A DNA stretch of 58,395 nucleotides from Acidobacteriota bacterium. Lineage in GTDB: Bacteria > Actinomycetota > Acidimicrobiia > ATN3. How positions within the stretch are numbered: the stretch's first letter is position 1; each line of letters opens with the position of its first letter. The stretch is taken from contig QEUQ01000008.1 in the NCBI GenBank assembly GCA_003577105.1, positions 1 to 58,395 on the forward strand, written 5' to 3'. Under the pieces are notes generated by a model that saw only the letters and a list, made by a program, of their open reading frames with translations, did no database searches and was not told the origin of the DNA. The translations under genes were made by a program, and so were the position numbers. Shown here piece after piece: positions 18,272-25,333 of the stretch.

Positions 18272-19954
18272 GTGTCGAAGTCCAACAGGCCAAGTCTTGA
18301 AGTGACCCAAGGGCCTTCGAGGGCGCCACACCGCGCCATGCTGCGCGCTACAGGCTTCAAAGACGAGGACTTCGACAAAGTCCAGGTAGGCATTGCCAGC
18401 GCGTGGAACGAGGTCACTCCCTGCAACATCGGCCTCGATGGCCTGGAAATCGACGCCAAGGAAGGCGTAGCAGCCGCCGGTGGTATCGGAATCCGCTTCA
18501 ACACGATCGCGGTAAGCGACGCCATCGCCATGGGGCACGAGGGCATGCGAGCCTCCCTCGCAAGCCGTGAAGTTATCGCGGATTCGGTGGAGCTCGTCGC
18601 GTTTGCGGAGAAGCTTGATGGCCTTGTGACGCTAGCCGGATGTGACAAGAGCCTGCCGGGAATGCTCATGGCATCTGCGCGTATGGACCTGCCATCGGTC
18701 TTCGTCTACGGCGGCACGATCATGCCGGGAGAGCACGCTGGTCACGACGTAACGATCCAAGACGTGTTCGAAGCAGTCGGTGCCCACTCGGCCGGTGAAA
18801 TGAGCGATGAGGAACTCGACGCGCTCGAGCACGAGGCCTGCCCGGGCGCCGGGTCATGCGGGGGCATGTTTACGGCAAACACCATGGCCGCTGTGGCCGA
18901 AGGGCTCGGCATGTCGATTCCCGGCAGTGCGTCACCGCCCTCAATCGACAGGCGCCGACATGACTACGCGCGCCAAGCCGGGGAGCTTGCCGTAACGGTA
19001 ATCGAGAACGATCTCACCCCCTCGAAGATCCTCACAAGAGAAGCATTTGAAAACGCGATCGCTGTTGCCCTCGCACTCGGCGGTTCGACGAACATGGTTC
19101 TTCACTTGCTGGCAATCGCCAATGAAGCTCGGGTCGATCTCGTCTTGGACGATTTCGATCGCGTCGCGCGCCGGACTCCGGTGCTAGCCGATCTCAAGCC
19201 GGCAGGCCAATACGTCATGTTCGACCTGGACCAGATCGGCGGTGTGCCGGTGGTCATGAAGGAACTTCTCAACGCCGGACTGCTCCACGGCGACTGCCTG
19301 ACAGTTACGGGCAAGACCGTCGCCGAAAATCTTGCCGACACCGCCCGCGACAAGTCAGAGAAGGTGGTAAAACCCGCTACCGCGCCGATACATGAGACCG
19401 GTGGGATTGTGATCCTGCGAGGGTCACTGGCCCCAGACGGAGCAGTTGCAAAGGTCGTTGGCCACCCCGACTACAAGTTCCAAGGGCCGGCGCGGGTCTT
19501 CGAGGATGAGCAGAGCTGCTTCGAGGCGGTCACTACAGGCGGCATCAAGAAGGGCGACGTGATCGTAATTCGCAATGAAGGCCCTCGCGGTGGTCCGGGC
19601 ATGAGAGAGATGCTTGCGGTCACCGCAGCAGTTGCTGGGGCAGGCCTCGGTGACGACGTGGCTCTCCTCACCGATGGCCGCTTCTCAGGAGCCACACACG
19701 GCCTCATGATCGCCCACGTCGCTCCCGAATCGGTTGACGGCGGTCCGATCGCGGTGGTTCAAGACGGCGACACAATCACAATCGATGTACCGGCCCGCAA
19801 GCTCGACATTGAGATTGATGACGACGAACTCAAAGCGCGCTTTGAGTTCTGGGAGCCAATGGCCCCCCGCTACACATGGGGAGCGCTGGCCAAGTACGCT
19901 AGCCTTGTCTCGTCGTCGGCACAGGGTGCCGTCTGCAGACCGACATTCCAGTGA
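18272..19954 (+). CDS. ilvD: dihydroxy-acid dehydratase
   Basis: 560 residues; dehydrates 2,3-dihydroxy-isovalerate and -methylvalerate in valine, isoleucine and CoA precursor synthesis. Iron-sulfur cluster ligands C51 (NEVTPCNIG), C124 (AGCDKSLPG) and C196 ([12 protein letters not shown]) are all present; three cysteines fit a [2Fe-2S] enzyme. GTG start at 18272 preceded by AAGGAG. No other ilv gene is adjacent. Confidence 0.97.
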
Positions 19955-19965
19955 AGGGCCAGATA

Positions 19966-20451
19966 ATGAGTCGCAAACGGCGCTTCTTTGCACTGGCATT
20001 GAGCATCACGGCGCTGATCATTGCGGGAATCGGAGCCGGATGCTCCAAAAACACTCCGACCTCAACCACCCAATCACCGTCCCCGAAGACCTCGACGCCA
20101 GCGCCGACAAGCACTGATATCTCGCTTCCATCGAAGATATTTCAGATTGGCGAGACCTCCGATACTGCTCAAGTCCAGGTCTCCAACGGCGATCGCTTCG
20201 CCCTGGCGATACCCTCAAACGCCACAACAGGGTTCCAGTGGTCAGCCAGCACTGTGCCGTCATTTCTGACTTCCGAAGGCTCCAAGTATGCGGGCGCCCC
20301 GACACCGGCAATGCCAGGAGCAGGTGGCACTCAGTACTTGATCTTCAAGGCCACAGGCACTGGCACCGAGACGATGGCCCTGGCGTACGCGAGGCCGAAC
20401 TCAACAGAGGCACCCGCTCGTACCGTTCGCGTCGAAGTTATTGCCACGTAG
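19966..20451 (+). CDS. chagasin-like (I42) cysteine-peptidase-inhibitor lipoprotein, copy 1
   Basis: 161 residues from ATG 19966, preferred over the GTG at 19951 because GAAGGG lies at good distance. Lipobox IGAGC gives a lipidated cysteine, then a Ser/Thr/Pro linker. The C-terminal ~105 residues match the chagasin fold: the inhibitory loop NATTGFQW, a Gly-rich loop GAGGTQYLIFKA, and YARP near the last loop. Chagasin-type proteins block papain-family proteases. No such protease is encoded in the window, so it probably acts on outside or self-secreted enzymes. Confidence 0.82.
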   Translation: MSRKRRFFALALSITALIIAGIGAGCSKNTPTSTTQSPSPKTSTPAPTSTDISLPSKIFQIGETSDTAQVQVSNGDRFALAIPSNATTGFQWSASTVPSFLTSEGSKYAGAPTPAMPGAGGTQYLIFKATGTGTETMALAYARPNSTEAPARTVRVEVIAT

Positions 20452-20941
20452 CCGGAGTGCGACTTTCGCGCTCGTCGCAGCACTAGCCCTTGCCGCAATC
20501 GCGGGTGCCGGGAGTGCGTGCGGCCCAAAGACCCCGCACGGCGCCACACAGCGTCCGTCAACCGCCCCGCCGAAAAGCCCGAAGCCTCCTGAGCCGCCTC
20601 CGATCGTCGTCGAAGTACCCGCCGGCGCGAACGAATTCACGACGACGGTTCCGCGAACAATGCGCCTGCTGTTGAAGATCCCGCTCGATAGCGGAACGGG
20701 CTATGACTGGATAATTCGCAATACTCCCCCGGTCGTAAGCGCTCTCGACAGCGGCCTAGAACCTCCTCCACCGGGATCACCTCCGGGCGCCCTGGCCATG
20801 TCTACATTCCTTTTTCAAGGGGCCACAGAAGGCTCCGGGGCGATCGAATTCGCACTTGAGCGTCCAACTTCAGGGCCCCCAGCGCGCACCCTCACGGTGG
20901 CAGTCTCGGTCACTCCGGCAAAGAGTTCGCCCACGCCGTAG
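20441..20941 (+). CDS. chagasin-like (I42) lipoprotein, copy 2
   Basis: 166 residues from TTG 20441, overlapping copy 1 by 11 bases. The signal peptide ends AGAGSAC, then a Pro-rich linker. Its inhibitor-like domain has DSGTGYDW in place of NATTGFQW, STFLFQG for the second loop region, and FALERP for the third. It is therefore a diverged tandem paralogue of the upstream gene. Its last 127 bases overlap apbE on the other strand. Confidence 0.75.
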   Translation: MPRSRSATFALVAALALAAIAGAGSACGPKTPHGATQRPSTAPPKSPKPPEPPPIVVEVPAGANEFTTTVPRTMRLLLKIPLDSGTGYDWIIRNTPPVVSALDSGLEPPPPGSPPGALAMSTFLFQGATEGSGAIEFALERPTSGPPARTLTVAVSVTPAKSSPTP

Positions 20942-21843
20942 ACGACGCCATCTCTGGATGTGGCGATCGCATCGGCGTCGAGCGCCCCAAGCAGACTGAG
21001 ACCGTGCCGCACTCCGCCGACGATTGCGGCCTTGGCCATGGCCTCCGCACCAGCCCCTGACTTGGCGACAACACTCACTGCAACTAGTTCCTCGGCTGCA
21101 GCCCCGCCAGTGCGCGGATCAATTATGTGATGCACTTCGTGCCCCCCGAGAAACCAACGTCGCCTCAACGTCGAGGATGTGCACGTTGCGCCTTCTGCGA
21201 TCGTAAGCGTGCAAATATCTCCGGCTCCGTGGTCCAGCGCAATTGGCCAAAGACCGCCTGCCGGACCGGGTCCGACGGCAAATAGGTCACCTCCCAAGTC
21301 CACCAGCGCGCCGCCGTCATCGCCAAGAAGAACTGCAACGCGCTGCGCCGACCACCCTTTCGCCACGCCCCCTAAGTCAACTCCGGAACCCCGCGCAATG
21401 CGAAGGGTGCTGCCATCAAGCGTGATTCTCGGTCTACGTGCGATTGGATCACCGAGCGTCTGAGCGCCTTCAGGCATTTCAATCTCCTGGGTGCCAGACC
21501 GGTCAATTTCCTCGAAGTCTCTGTCGTATCCGACACGACCGATCTCGCCGAGAAGCGCGACGCTGAAGAGCCCGTGTGTCCGCGACTCAAGATCCAACGC
21601 GACCTCCAGTAAGTCGCGCATTTCCTTAGACACCAGGCCGCCGCCGCTCGCATTGAGCCGACTCAGCTCGCTGCCGGCCTTGAAGCGGGAGAATGTCTCT
21701 TCGAAACGATCGACCTCCAGACGCCCACGCTTCAAGAGCTCGTCGCAGTGCGGCCCTGGCTCAACGGCGATGAAACAATCGGCGCCCATGGCTCGAAATG
21801 AAATACTCGGCCAGGACTCATTCCCCATCGACAGTCGCCGCAC
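20815..21843 (-). CDS. apbE: FAD:protein FMN transferase (ApbE family)
   Basis: 342 residues from GTG 21843 (an ATG at 21828 is an alternative). ApbE covalently attaches FMN to Ser/Thr of extracytosolic redox proteins. Signatures: FRAMGADC, GVDLGGVAKGWSAQRV with the nucleotide-binding segment, DLGGDLFAVG and HHIIDPRTG with the metal-binding Asp. There is no evident signal peptide; the N-terminus starts at the catalytic domain. It overlaps the ferric-reductase-like gene and ends in a ~30-residue tail that is antisense to chagasin copy 2. No FMN_bind domain protein is visible in the window. Confidence 0.9.
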   Translation of the reverse strand: MRRLSMGNESWPSISFRAMGADCFIAVEPGPHCDELLKRGRLEVDRFEETFSRFKAGSELSRLNASGGGLVSKEMRDLLEVALDLESRTHGLFSVALLGEIGRVGYDRDFEEIDRSGTQEIEMPEGAQTLGDPIARRPRITLDGSTLRIARGSGVDLGGVAKGWSAQRVAVLLGDDGGALVDLGGDLFAVGPGPAGGLWPIALDHGAGDICTLTIAEGATCTSSTLRRRWFLGGHEVHHIIDPRTGGAAAEELVAVSVVAKSGAGAEAMAKAAIVGGVRHGLSLLGALDADAIATSRDGVVYGVGELFAGVTETATVRVRAGGPEVGRSSANSIAPEPSVAP

Positions 21844-22393
21844 GTCTGGCAGTCGTACTTCGCTCGTCGCCGACCCTATAGATCACGCGAAAGGCGCTGG
21901 CAAATAGGACACTAAAGGCCGATGACAGGGCGAGAACGAATACGTAGGCCCTCTTCGCTTCGGTTCCGATCGCAATGAAGTGCGCAAGGGCCAGCACGAA
22001 CACGGGATAGGCGAGCAGGTGCAATGCTCTCCAGGCGCGCATTCCGAGGTATTTTCGGAGGCGGAATGAGACCGCAATCGCCATTCCGAGCTCGAAAGCG
22101 ACCACCCCCATTGCTGTGGCAACTGGCGAGTCTTCGGCCGCGAACGGCACGAGGAGATCCGCTGCCCCGTAGCCAGCGTGCGAATCGAGCATTAGGACGC
22201 CTGCGTGGATACCTGCGAAGGCGAGTGCCGCTGTCGAGAGAATCCTGTGCCAATCGAGAATCGCAGCCCGCGAGATCTTCGACGAGAAGGGCTTACTCGA
22301 GACGAGAATTCCCCATATGACCGACGCCCACAAGAGAGCGAACGAGACTAGGCCAGCAGCCCGCGACGCCTGCCATGCCGACGAAGCACCCAC
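21818..22393 (-). CDS. ferric-reductase-like transmembrane heme protein
   Basis: 191 residues from GTG 22393. About five membrane helices with paired histidines able to hold heme b: LDWHRILSTAALAFAGIHAG (two His one helix apart) and ALHLLAYPVFVLALAHFIAI. This is the ferric_reduct domain found in YedZ/MsrQ and NOX-type proteins, without attached FAD/NAD domains. It most likely carries electrons across the membrane to a flavinylated or other outside acceptor. The start overlaps the previous stop by one base (TAGTG). Confidence 0.87.
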   Translation of the reverse strand: MGASSAWQASRAAGLVSFALLWASVIWGILVSSKPFSSKISRAAILDWHRILSTAALAFAGIHAGVLMLDSHAGYGAADLLVPFAAEDSPVATAMGVVAFELGMAIAVSFRLRKYLGMRAWRALHLLAYPVFVLALAHFIAIGTEAKRAYVFVLALSSAFSVLFASAFRVIYRVGDERSTTARRAATVDGE

Positions 22394-22761
22394 TACGAAG
22401 CTCTCGATCTAGCTACCGGGGCCGGCCTGGAGGACCGGCTTGATCCCGACGATCCCCCAGAGGCATGCGAACTCGATGGCGGGCTCTGTGCCTGACCTGA
22501 TCGCCTGCCCGATACGACTGCCGAACCGGAGCCCGCAGACGCTCGGTCGGGGCCGGCGGGCGCCCCAGAGCCCAAGCTGGCCTGTGACGACATGTCGGTG
22601 GAGCTCTCCAGACCTATCGCTCCCCAAGTTCCCATGAACATGGCAACCGCGGCGCTCCAAAGGGTCACCCTCCGGGCTATCTTGCGCCCACTGTCCATCG
22701 GCCTACTGCCTATGCGGCCAGCACTTGCTCGTTGATTGCCGCCCGTGGACCTAGTCGTCAT
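22393..22761 (-). CDS. small membrane-anchored protein with Ser/Gly-rich tail
   Basis: 122 residues from ATG 22761, which overlaps the previous gene's stop by 11 bases; the longer upstream frame is antisense noise. A basic N-terminus precedes one hydrophobic segment (VTLWSAAVAMFMGTWGAIGL) and a Ser/Gly/Ala-rich tail that would lie outside. No known domain. Its place between an acidic protein and the heme protein, in tightly coupled order, suggests it belongs to the same redox unit. Confidence 0.65.
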   Translation of the reverse strand: MTTRSTGGNQRASAGRIGSRPMDSGRKIARRVTLWSAAVAMFMGTWGAIGLESSTDMSSQASLGSGAPAGPDRASAGSGSAVVSGRRSGQAQSPPSSSHASGGSSGSSRSSRPAPVARSRAS

Positions 22762-23092
22762 CGTGACGCTCTCCGTGCTCTCGGTCGCGTGGCGTCTCAT
22801 GCTCCCGCTCCTTGCCCGACTCACCCTCTTCCCGGTCGTCGTGATCGTCGTCGTTCTCCTCGCCGGAGCGACTTGGCTCTCCGTGCCATTCCGGATCAGC
22901 TGTCTCCGTCGCGCCAGGGGGTACGTATTCGCTGCCGGCGACCACAGAGTCGGTGACCTCCGTTCGAGCCGAGACCGGCTCATGACCGGGGCCATCGCTC
23001 AAGATGCCTGAATTGACTCCGATCGCCCATACCGTCGCAAAGATCGCAAGAGCTACGGCAAATGCGGCAATCGCTGCCTGTGTTCGTTTCAT
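22751..23092 (-). CDS. secreted or anchored small protein with His/Asp/Glu-rich tail
   Basis: 113 residues; ATG 23092 preceded by GAGGAG. An N-terminal hydrophobic segment (residues ~6-27) acts as signal or anchor. The last ~45 residues are packed with Asp, Glu, His and Arg (DDDHDDREEGE..., HGERHDDD), suggesting metal or polycation binding outside the membrane. No family recognised. First gene of the leftward redox operon, divergent from the response regulator. Confidence 0.7.
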   Translation of the reverse strand: MKRTQAAIAAFAVALAIFATVWAIGVNSGILSDGPGHEPVSARTEVTDSVVAGSEYVPPGATETADPEWHGEPSRSGEENDDDHDDREEGESGKEREHETPRDREHGERHDDD

Positions 23093-23246: not shown

Positions 23247-23954
23247 ATGGGCAATCAGATTCTCATAGTCGAAGATGAAGATCGGATATCTGAGCCGCTC
23301 GCACGCGCGCTCAGCAACCGAGGCTACGAGACAAGCGTTGCGCCAACCGGTGCGTCAGCGCTGAAGACCGCCGCTTCAAAGGACCTATTCCTGGTTGACT
23401 TGAATCTGCCCGACATCGACGGCATCGACCTTTGCCGCAGGCTACGGTCGGTCACCGATGCACCGATCATCGTCCTAAGCGCAAGAAGTGGGGTGGGCGA
23501 CAAGGTGGCGTGCCTTGAGATTGGCGCTGATGACTACGTCACCAAACCGTTCGAACTCGACGAATTGCTGGCGAGAATCCGCGTGCAAATCCGCCGCTCG
23601 GACCATACAGCCGAGATCGATGTCGAGGCAGCAGATGAGATTGAGGTAGGTCGAGTTCGAATCGACCCACGCTCGCGTCGAGCATGGTCCGCGGGCAACG
23701 AGCTGGATCTGAGCCCAAAGGAGTTCGATTTGCTGTTGCTTCTGATGCGAAACGCCGGCGAAGTTGTTAGACGAGAGACCGCGATTAGTCGCGTGTGGGA
23801 CGAAAACTGGTACGGATCAACCAAGACGCTTGACGTTCACATCGGATGGCTACGCAAGAAGATCGAGACCAACCCCTCTAGCCCGATCTACATCACTACG
23901 GTTCGTCGAGTCGGATTTCGCTTCGCATCTTCCGACGAGCTCCCGAACCGGTGA
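23247..23954 (+). CDS. OmpR-family response regulator
   Basis: 235 residues: receiver domain with phospho-acceptor D51 (LFLVDLNLPDIDG), acidic pocket E9/D10/E11 and K100 (YVTKPFE), then a winged helix-turn-helix (LSPKEFDLLLLLMRNAGEVV ... VGFRF). Its stop overlaps the kinase GTG by four bases. It faces the redox operon across a 154-bp shared promoter region, the most likely target. Confidence 0.95.
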   Translation: MGNQILIVEDEDRISEPLARALSNRGYETSVAPTGASALKTAASKDLFLVDLNLPDIDGIDLCRRLRSVTDAPIIVLSARSGVGDKVACLEIGADDYVTKPFELDELLARIRVQIRRSDHTAEIDVEAADEIEVGRVRIDPRSRRAWSAGNELDLSPKEFDLLLLLMRNAGEVVRRETAISRVWDENWYGSTKTLDVHIGWLRKKIETNPSSPIYITTVRRVGFRFASSDELPNR

Positions 23955-25333
23955 GCCTTAGGGCCCGAATCTTCACGGGAACATTCGTACTCATCCTCCT
24001 CACGATTGCAGCCCTTGGGGTGCCACTCCTCGTGATCGTGCGGGATCACGCGCTAGATGAGATCCAGAACTCCCTCAAGGGCGATGCTTACCGGACCGCT
24101 TCACTGGTCGTGACCGCTATCGAGCAAGGCAACGACCGGCAGGTCGCCGAGATCGCAGATTACGCGGCCCGGCAGTCGAACTCCCGTGTGACGGTCACCG
24201 ATCGCGACGGTGCCCTGATCTTCGATTCGGACAATCCGGATCGCGCTAGTGAGGATTTTGCGAACCGCCCTGAGATCGAAGCAGCCCTCTCCGGCATCGA
24301 TGCGTCAGAGATTCGGATGAGCGAGACGCTTGGCACCGAAATCTTGGTGGTGGCCGTACCGGTAGCCCGCGCCGGACGCATCGCAGGAGCGCTCCGCCTC
24401 TCGCGCGGCATTGCAGAGGTACGAGCGGACCAATTCAAGACCACGGCAAGCGTGGTTGCTCTCCTCGCAATCCTGGTTGGAGCCGGTGCTTGGATCTCGT
24501 CGGGTATCGGCCGAAGTGTCGGCAGGCCGGTTGCCGAGATTGGCCGAGTTGCCGAGAGGATTGGCCACGGCGAATATTCGGCGAGAGCCCGCGAGGTGGG
24601 CCCGCCGGAGATCCGCGAACTTGCTCACTCGCTGAACAACTCAGCGGCCCGTGTCGAAACTGCAGTCTCAACTGAACGCACGTTCATCGGGAATGCCGCA
24701 CACCAGCTAAAGACCCCCCTCGCCGCAATAGGAATTCGTCTCGCATCGATCTCCGACGAGCCGCATCTCAGCGACGTTGCACTCGCCGATCTCAAGGAAG
24801 CCAAGACCGAGGTGCAGGATCTGGGCCGCCTTGTCGACCAGCTACTCCTACTTTCAAGGACCACTGACGCCACAGGCGCCCACATCGACGAACCGTCCGA
24901 TCCCGGCCCCGCTCTCAGAGCCATCGCCTCGCAATGGCGCGAAGCCATGGCCACTCAAGGAATCGACCTCGAAGTCGAGATTGCTCGTGACCTTCCGAAG
25001 ATCAGTTTGGCACCGGATCTGCTGGCTCAAGCGTGCGACAACCTGCTCGATAATGTGACAAGGCACTGCCCGAATTCGAAGAGTGCGCTGCTCGAAGCAG
25101 TGAGTGAGCAAGAGCGCCTCAAGATCAGAGTTCTCGACACTGGCGGCGGACTTAGCCCCGAGATCGAGAGGACTGCCTTTGCGCGGTTCACTCGGGGAAC
25201 CTCGGCGATCCCAGGGACAGGCCTTGGCTTGGCGCTAGTTCGACAGGTGGCTGAATCGGTTGGAGGAAGTGTCGAGCTTTCGACGTCGCCGGCCGGAACA
25301 GAGGTGACCTTGCGCATCCCCTCGGCCTCATGA
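23951..25333 (+). CDS. sensor histidine kinase
   Basis: 460 residues from GTG 23951. Two membrane helices (about 9-31 and 165-187) enclose a ~130-residue outside sensor domain. Then comes HAMP, a HisKA domain with phosphoacceptor H251 (NAAHQLKTPLAAI), and an HATPase domain with N box (ACDNLLDN), G1 (DTGGGLSPE) and G2 (GTGLGLALVRQV). The HQLKTP variant of the H box is common in actinobacterial kinases. Partner of the regulator directly upstream; signal unknown. Confidence 0.95.
   Translation: MSLRARIFTGTFVLILLTIAALGVPLLVIVRDHALDEIQNSLKGDAYRTASLVVTAIEQGNDRQVAEIADYAARQSNSRVTVTDRDGALIFDSDNPDRASEDFANRPEIEAALSGIDASEIRMSETLGTEILVVAVPVARAGRIAGALRLSRGIAEVRADQFKTTASVVALLAILVGAGAWISSGIGRSVGRPVAEIGRVAERIGHGEYSARAREVGPPEIRELAHSLNNSAARVETAVSTERTFIGNAAHQLKTPLAAIGIRLASISDEPHLSDVALADLKEAKTEVQDLGRLVDQLLLLSRTTDATGAHIDEPSDPGPALRAIASQWREAMATQGIDLEVEIARDLPKISLAPDLLAQACDNLLDNVTRHCPNSKSALLEAVSEQERLKIRVLDTGGGLSPEIERTAFARFTRGTSAIPGTGLGLALVRQVAESVGGSVELSTSPAGTEVTLRIPSAS

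Follow-up and report, generated by a model that had tools for sequence, protein, structure and literature searches.

Gene content of the ApbE operon

The window (the whole stretch of DNA that was analysed, 58,395 nt) carries on its minus strand four genes in the order S1, encoding a small protein with an acidic tail, S2, encoding a small protein with a Ser/Gly tail, FRD, encoding a ferric-reductase-like membrane protein, and ApbE. The initial annotation had described an ApbE operon without a recognised flavin acceptor, and all four genes are indeed present on the minus strand at 20815-23092. Its coordinates were correct apart from two points: S2 begins at 22761, and the two-component genes are not within 20815-23092. 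The features are as follows.

S1, 22751..23092, minus strand: open reading frame of 113 aa with a Shine-Dalgarno-like GAGGAG upstream
S2, 22393..22761, minus strand: 122 aa, the sole fully open frame between S1 and FRD
S2 transmembrane helix, residues 32-52, 22606..22668, minus strand: predicted from hydropathy
S2 C-terminal SRAS, proposed flavinylation site (Ser122), 22396..22407, minus strand: matches the family C-terminal consensus
FRD, 21818..22393, minus strand: MsrQ-like/ferric-reductase-like membrane protein (PF01794, E 1.2e-7)
ApbE, 20815..about 21828/21843, minus strand: FAD:protein FMN transferase (PF02424, E 2e-40)
Response regulator, 23247..23954, plus strand: PF00072 and PF00486
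Sensor histidine kinase, 23951..25333, plus strand: PF02518, PF00512 and PF00672, with a weak Cache-like match

S2 initiates at an ATG within the final codons of S1, one base is common to the S2 stop and the FRD start, and the ApbE start overlaps the end of FRD. These overlapping reading frames indicate that S1, S2, FRD and ApbE form a single translationally coupled operon. The arrangement is not due to chance, and dozens of relatives show it as well. A second frame that overlies S2 (22409-22660, with the end QAGPGS) was rejected, as it starts within S2, opens only past stops and lacks the family architecture. A scan for promoters and terminators found nothing above chance. The response regulator and histidine kinase genes are divergent from the operon, and the response regulator is its probable regulator. 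At 19951-20941 on the plus strand, chagasin-like (I42) peptidase inhibitors, exported or lipoprotein-like, are encoded by two overlapping genes in tandem. These genes are convergent with the ApbE operon and the second overlaps the end of ApbE.

Neither S1 nor S2 has a Pfam or NCBIfam match above the cut-off, in agreement with the earlier statement that the small proteins lack FMN_bind. S1 is small, is either exported or anchored, and has an acidic tail rich in His, Asp and Glu that ends in RHDDD. Under a strict rule, S1-like proteins (signal or anchor, often ANLGIL, and an acidic tail ending DDD) were found in 23 of 70 FRD loci. In four loci (L041, L050, L052 and L161), the S1 variants have a Cys-pair segment (C..G..L...E..G.I...Q.AALDALR.LC) in the centre, ahead of the acidic tail, and in three of these (L041, L050 and L161) the variant is adjoined by a further one-helix protein that ends in a conserved LPxSIxxVL.

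Known flavin acceptors in the genome and the class

No match to FMN_bind was found across the whole assembly (2.87 Mb, 95 % complete, 104 contigs), and DUF2271 and NqrB/RnfD were likewise without a match in the assembly, which encodes a single ApbE. An FMN_bind protein elsewhere in the genome, DUF2271 and NqrB/RnfD were therefore all rejected as the acceptor for this operon. The search for FMN_bind elsewhere had been proposed in the initial annotation, where a conserved FMN_bind partner was named as grounds for refutation; the negative result thus favours that annotation, and most ApbE-containing genomes of the class also lack FMN_bind. Among 246 sampled Acidimicrobiia genomes, all of them drafts selected to be at least 90 % complete and in which genes were found using simple custom rules, ApbE is present in 136 and FMN_bind in just 46; hence, a missing FMN_bind is the rule in the class. 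Four genomes (G037, G060, G084 and G157) without an FMN_bind match include full-length matches to NqrB/RnfD, which is unusual for Nqr/Rnf.

Where FMN_bind is present, the genes usually run FRD, FMN_bind, ApbE, and most of these loci have no two-component pair. In loci without FMN_bind, ApbE adjoins FRD and a two-component pair is often beside them (of 70 FRD loci lacking FMN_bind, 40 have genes for a response regulator and a histidine kinase).

FRD and S1 were also considered as acceptors. No conserved pattern was seen when 19 divergent FRD sequences were scanned, and a closer set was then used. His49, His63, His125 and His138 of the window FRD are invariant in 19 relatives and are predicted to be the ligands of two hemes. 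However, no Ser or Thr is invariant among the FRD relatives aligned, and FRD was rejected as the flavin acceptor on this basis. S1 is not supported as a flavin carrier, because it is not widely found and no shared acceptor-like motif was seen among the listed S1-like sequences. In two loci (L038, 5560-6276, and L046, 6928-7836), an anchored protein adjoining FRD contains what appears by eye to be a formylglycine-generating-enzyme-type domain.

The S2 proteins and their C-terminal motif

The window S2 consists of an Arg-rich cytosolic N-terminus, one helix and a 70-residue Ser/Gly/Ala tail. This architecture is repeated directly upstream of ApbE or FRD in relatives, where the gene in the S2 position encodes an Arg-rich start, one helix and a long tail rich in Pro, Ala, Ser and Thr. 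In 61 of 64 S2 proteins, the N-terminal flank of the helix is more positive than the C-terminal flank (mean +4.0 versus -0.2), pointing to an N-in orientation with the tail predicted to be outside the membrane. Outside the class, similar genes are found upstream of ApbE in other lineages of the phylum (L285, L287, L290, L296, L297 and L298), and 17 of the 19 genomes with such upstream genes that were checked lack FMN_bind.

The motif [ST]-x-[GA]-Ser was found at the very end of 42 of 67 S2-type tails and one residue earlier in 10 more (52/67). When the tails were shuffled (2000 rounds), the motif fell exactly at the end in a mean of 0.84 and a maximum of 5 tails, compared with the 42 observed. 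Away from the end of the same tails its rate is 1 %, and it ends only 29 of 2783 other ORFs and 18 of 736 other low-complexity ends. In a holdout set drawn from another collection, from which duplicates of the loci used before had been taken out, the motif was at the end or one residue before it in 39 of 51 loci, and most of the remainder show TxPS, TRSS or TKTS. Applying the strict rule, 44 of the 53 genomes examined that have ApbE but no known acceptor carry a gene with the motif; among the nine that do not, several show near matches or contig ends.

Ser is the final residue in 91 of 91 cases, though the pattern permitted Thr and Thr makes up about half of the tails. The family C-terminal consensus is P-V-[TA]-x-[ST]-[GRSK]-[GA]-S, with positions -8 to -4 also biased, and the window S2 end, PVARSRAS, agrees with it at each position. 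Ends in RSRAS recur in L035, L054, L206, L223 and L235. The window S2 is not matched by a profile of the S2 N-terminus. Though divergent, it can be provisionally assigned to the S2 type by its position upstream of FRD and ApbE, its architecture (one helix and a low-complexity tail) and its C-terminal [ST]x[GA]S.

Variants, namely TxPS, TRSS or Cys-closed loops, are seen in a minority of loci. Where the loop is present (L057, L139, L140, L156 and L169), it is small, is closed by Cys around [PA]-S-G (e.g. CYSTPSGNVRCY) and replaces the free C-terminal Ser at the end of the S2 tail; all five loci are in one ApbE clade.

S2 as a candidate flavin carrier and its relation to known systems

The consensus for ApbE acceptors is [ST]GA[ST], with FMN going on the last residue (PMC8238504, PMC12052999); a stretch of seven residues is enough, and tags at the C-terminus are modified well (PMC12052999). 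Six S2 tails carry exactly this consensus at, or a few residues from, their end. Further observations link the S2 tail to flavin. First, an HMM built from the S2 N-terminus alone, and hence blind to the tail, recovered further S2 proteins, mostly with the motif at the end, and also five different FMN_bind proteins that share this Arg-rich anchor. The latter matches are moderate (E 9e-6 to 1e-3). The presence of the same anchor on both suggests that the FMN_bind domain and the short motif replace each other. Second, the nearest relative of the window, L032, has an FRD gene that extends into another helix and an S2-like tail ending TRSRGS, and that is followed by ApbE. Third, in the ApbE tree the FMN_bind type and the DUF2271 type each form one supported clade, with the S2 types elsewhere, and a single change separates the S2 and FMN_bind types. 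The ApbE subfamily thus follows the acceptor type. The earlier proposal that one of the small proteins is a new type of ApbE acceptor is therefore supported for S2, by the motif, anchor exchange, fusion and ApbE tree, but not for S1.

The window ApbE aligns with solved ApbE structures and has kept DLGGVAKG, VDLGGD and HHIIDPRTG, and is predicted to have FMN transfer activity. We infer that it would move FMN from FAD onto the C-terminal Ser of S2, in the motif [ST]-x-[GA]-Ser-COOH. The S2 helix would anchor the protein in the membrane, and the FMN at the tip of the long flexible tail would act as a swinging arm. The diheme FRD would take electrons across the membrane to the tethered FMN, which would hand them on to an acceptor outside the cytosol, for example ferric iron. 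A possible role of S1 is to concentrate metal, perhaps holding ferric iron, and the two-component system would turn the operon on. Judged from sequence, we give a probability of about 0.73 to the reading that the operon is an electron-export module with S2 as the flavin carrier and FMN on the terminal Ser. It also seems likely that S2 proteins represent a natural C-terminal flavin tag, i.e. a class of ApbE substrate with no folded flavin domain, in which FMN would be on the terminal Ser of a membrane-anchored disordered tether.

Neither the window ApbE nor any of 94 relatives (0/94) includes a signal peptide or hydrophobic N-terminus that would mark it for export. As the S2 tail is predicted to be outside, either flavinylation precedes export or the topology is different, and S2 is probably modified in the cytosol prior to export. 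The ApbEs of both FMN_bind and S2 loci lack a signal peptide, and the FMN_bind loci of the class share this conflict between ApbE and the topology of the acceptor.

The alternative that best survives, though we consider it unlikely, is that ApbE flavinylates FRD, S1 or an unlinked protein and that the S2 end serves FRD or ApbE as a peptide for docking or recognition. SRAS is a near, not an exact, match to [ST]GA[ST]; it and the motifs of most relatives deviate from the canonical SGA[ST] at one or two positions, and the usual upstream Asp is missing from the window motif and from most of the others. Moreover, S2 also adjoins FRD where ApbE lies elsewhere in the genome (L036, L042 and L045). However, S2 is favoured as the carrier by the lack of an invariant Ser or Thr in FRD, the presence of S1 in only a minority of loci, the canonical [ST]GA[ST] in the six S2 tails noted above, and the exchange of tail for FMN_bind on a shared anchor. 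It is quite improbable that ApbE acts only in flavin trafficking, hydrolysing FAD as does Treponema Ftp, with free FMN serving FRD or extracellular shuttling and S2 being structural. Some ApbE homologues are FAD pyrophosphatases (PMC4767422), but such a role leaves the strict C-terminal Ser motif and its exchange with a flavinylated domain unexplained, and the ApbE here lacks a signal peptide. Still less probable is an FMN_bind acceptor located in the unassembled 5 % of the genome. A completeness of 95 % in 104 contigs leaves room for one, but the same lack is seen in about 90 of the 136 class members with ApbE, each of them at least 90 % complete by selection, and the FMN_bind gene of FMN_bind loci is normally beside FRD, and usually ApbE, which is not the case here. 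Finally, overlap or abutment of the S2 stop and the next start in many loci might suggest a nucleotide artefact of translational coupling, with a downstream ribosome-binding site read as Gly-Gly-Ser, but this is hardly credible and was rejected because all six Ser codons are used at the S2 end (AGY and TCN both common) and the Gly and Ala of the motif are encoded by many codons, indicating that the protein and not a ribosome-binding site is conserved, while the bias at positions -8 to -4 and retention of the motif in the S2-like tail fused behind FRD also contradict it.

With S2 as the candidate carrier, the operon can be compared with known systems. The MsrQ-like flavinylation clusters (Meheust et al. 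2021, PMC8238504), which are widespread in Actinobacteria, likewise combine a PF01794 diheme membrane protein with ApbE. The window operon shares the apbE gene and a PF01794 protein with the heme-ligand His. However, an FMN_bind gene is typical of those clusters and their MsrQ often has an NAD-binding domain, neither of which is found here, and the acceptor proposed here is a disordered tail. That survey dropped genes without a signal peptide, which would exclude ApbEs of the window type. The engineered flavin-tag (Tong et al. 2021, as described in PMC12052999) is also a short terminal motif in which ApbE modifies the last Ser or Thr. According to the same account, it has the form D-x-x-[ST]-G-A-[ST] with Thr preferred, whereas the natural S2 tails lack the Asp and always end in Ser. 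In FMN_red proteins (Huang et al. 2024, PMC11334425), the acceptor site is on an unstructured C-terminal extension, as proposed for S2, but the flavin docks in a folded flavin-binding domain, which S2 does not have.

A search of the open-access literature found no paper combining flavinylation and Acidimicrobi, and, judged on that literature, a C-terminal flavin-tether substrate of ApbE appears to be unrecognised so far. The 2021 survey noted that genomes with apbE but no recognised substrate remain, their substrates being unidentified (PMC8238504). The S2 type provides a concrete candidate substrate for such genomes in a large group of environmental actinobacteria, and the C-terminal consensus is a simple sequence rule for finding more proteins of this type. 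If our reading is correct, such a system would occur widely in Acidimicrobiia and in further classes of the phylum, and many of their orphan apbE genes would be explained by it. A flexibly tethered covalent flavin would carry electrons without a protein fold around it, comparable to a lipoyl or biotin arm, and engineered flavin-tags would have a natural counterpart. The iron-reducing Acidimicrobiia strain A6 colonises electrodes (PMC6275345), and we speculate that the S2 system bears on electron export in iron-reducing members of the class.

The DUF2271 and DUF3570 proteins (PMC8238504) are, like the proposed S2 type, ApbE acceptors without FMN_bind and were found from orphan apbE genes. Unlike the S2 tail, they are folded domains with a canonical [ST]GA[ST]. 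DUF2271 is also present in Acidimicrobiia, with a separate ApbE clade that comprises L133, L134, L163, L168 and L170. A DUF2271 gene is beside ApbE in all of these except L163, where it is on another contig, and PepSY-like proteins adjoin the ApbE region in L134 and L168.
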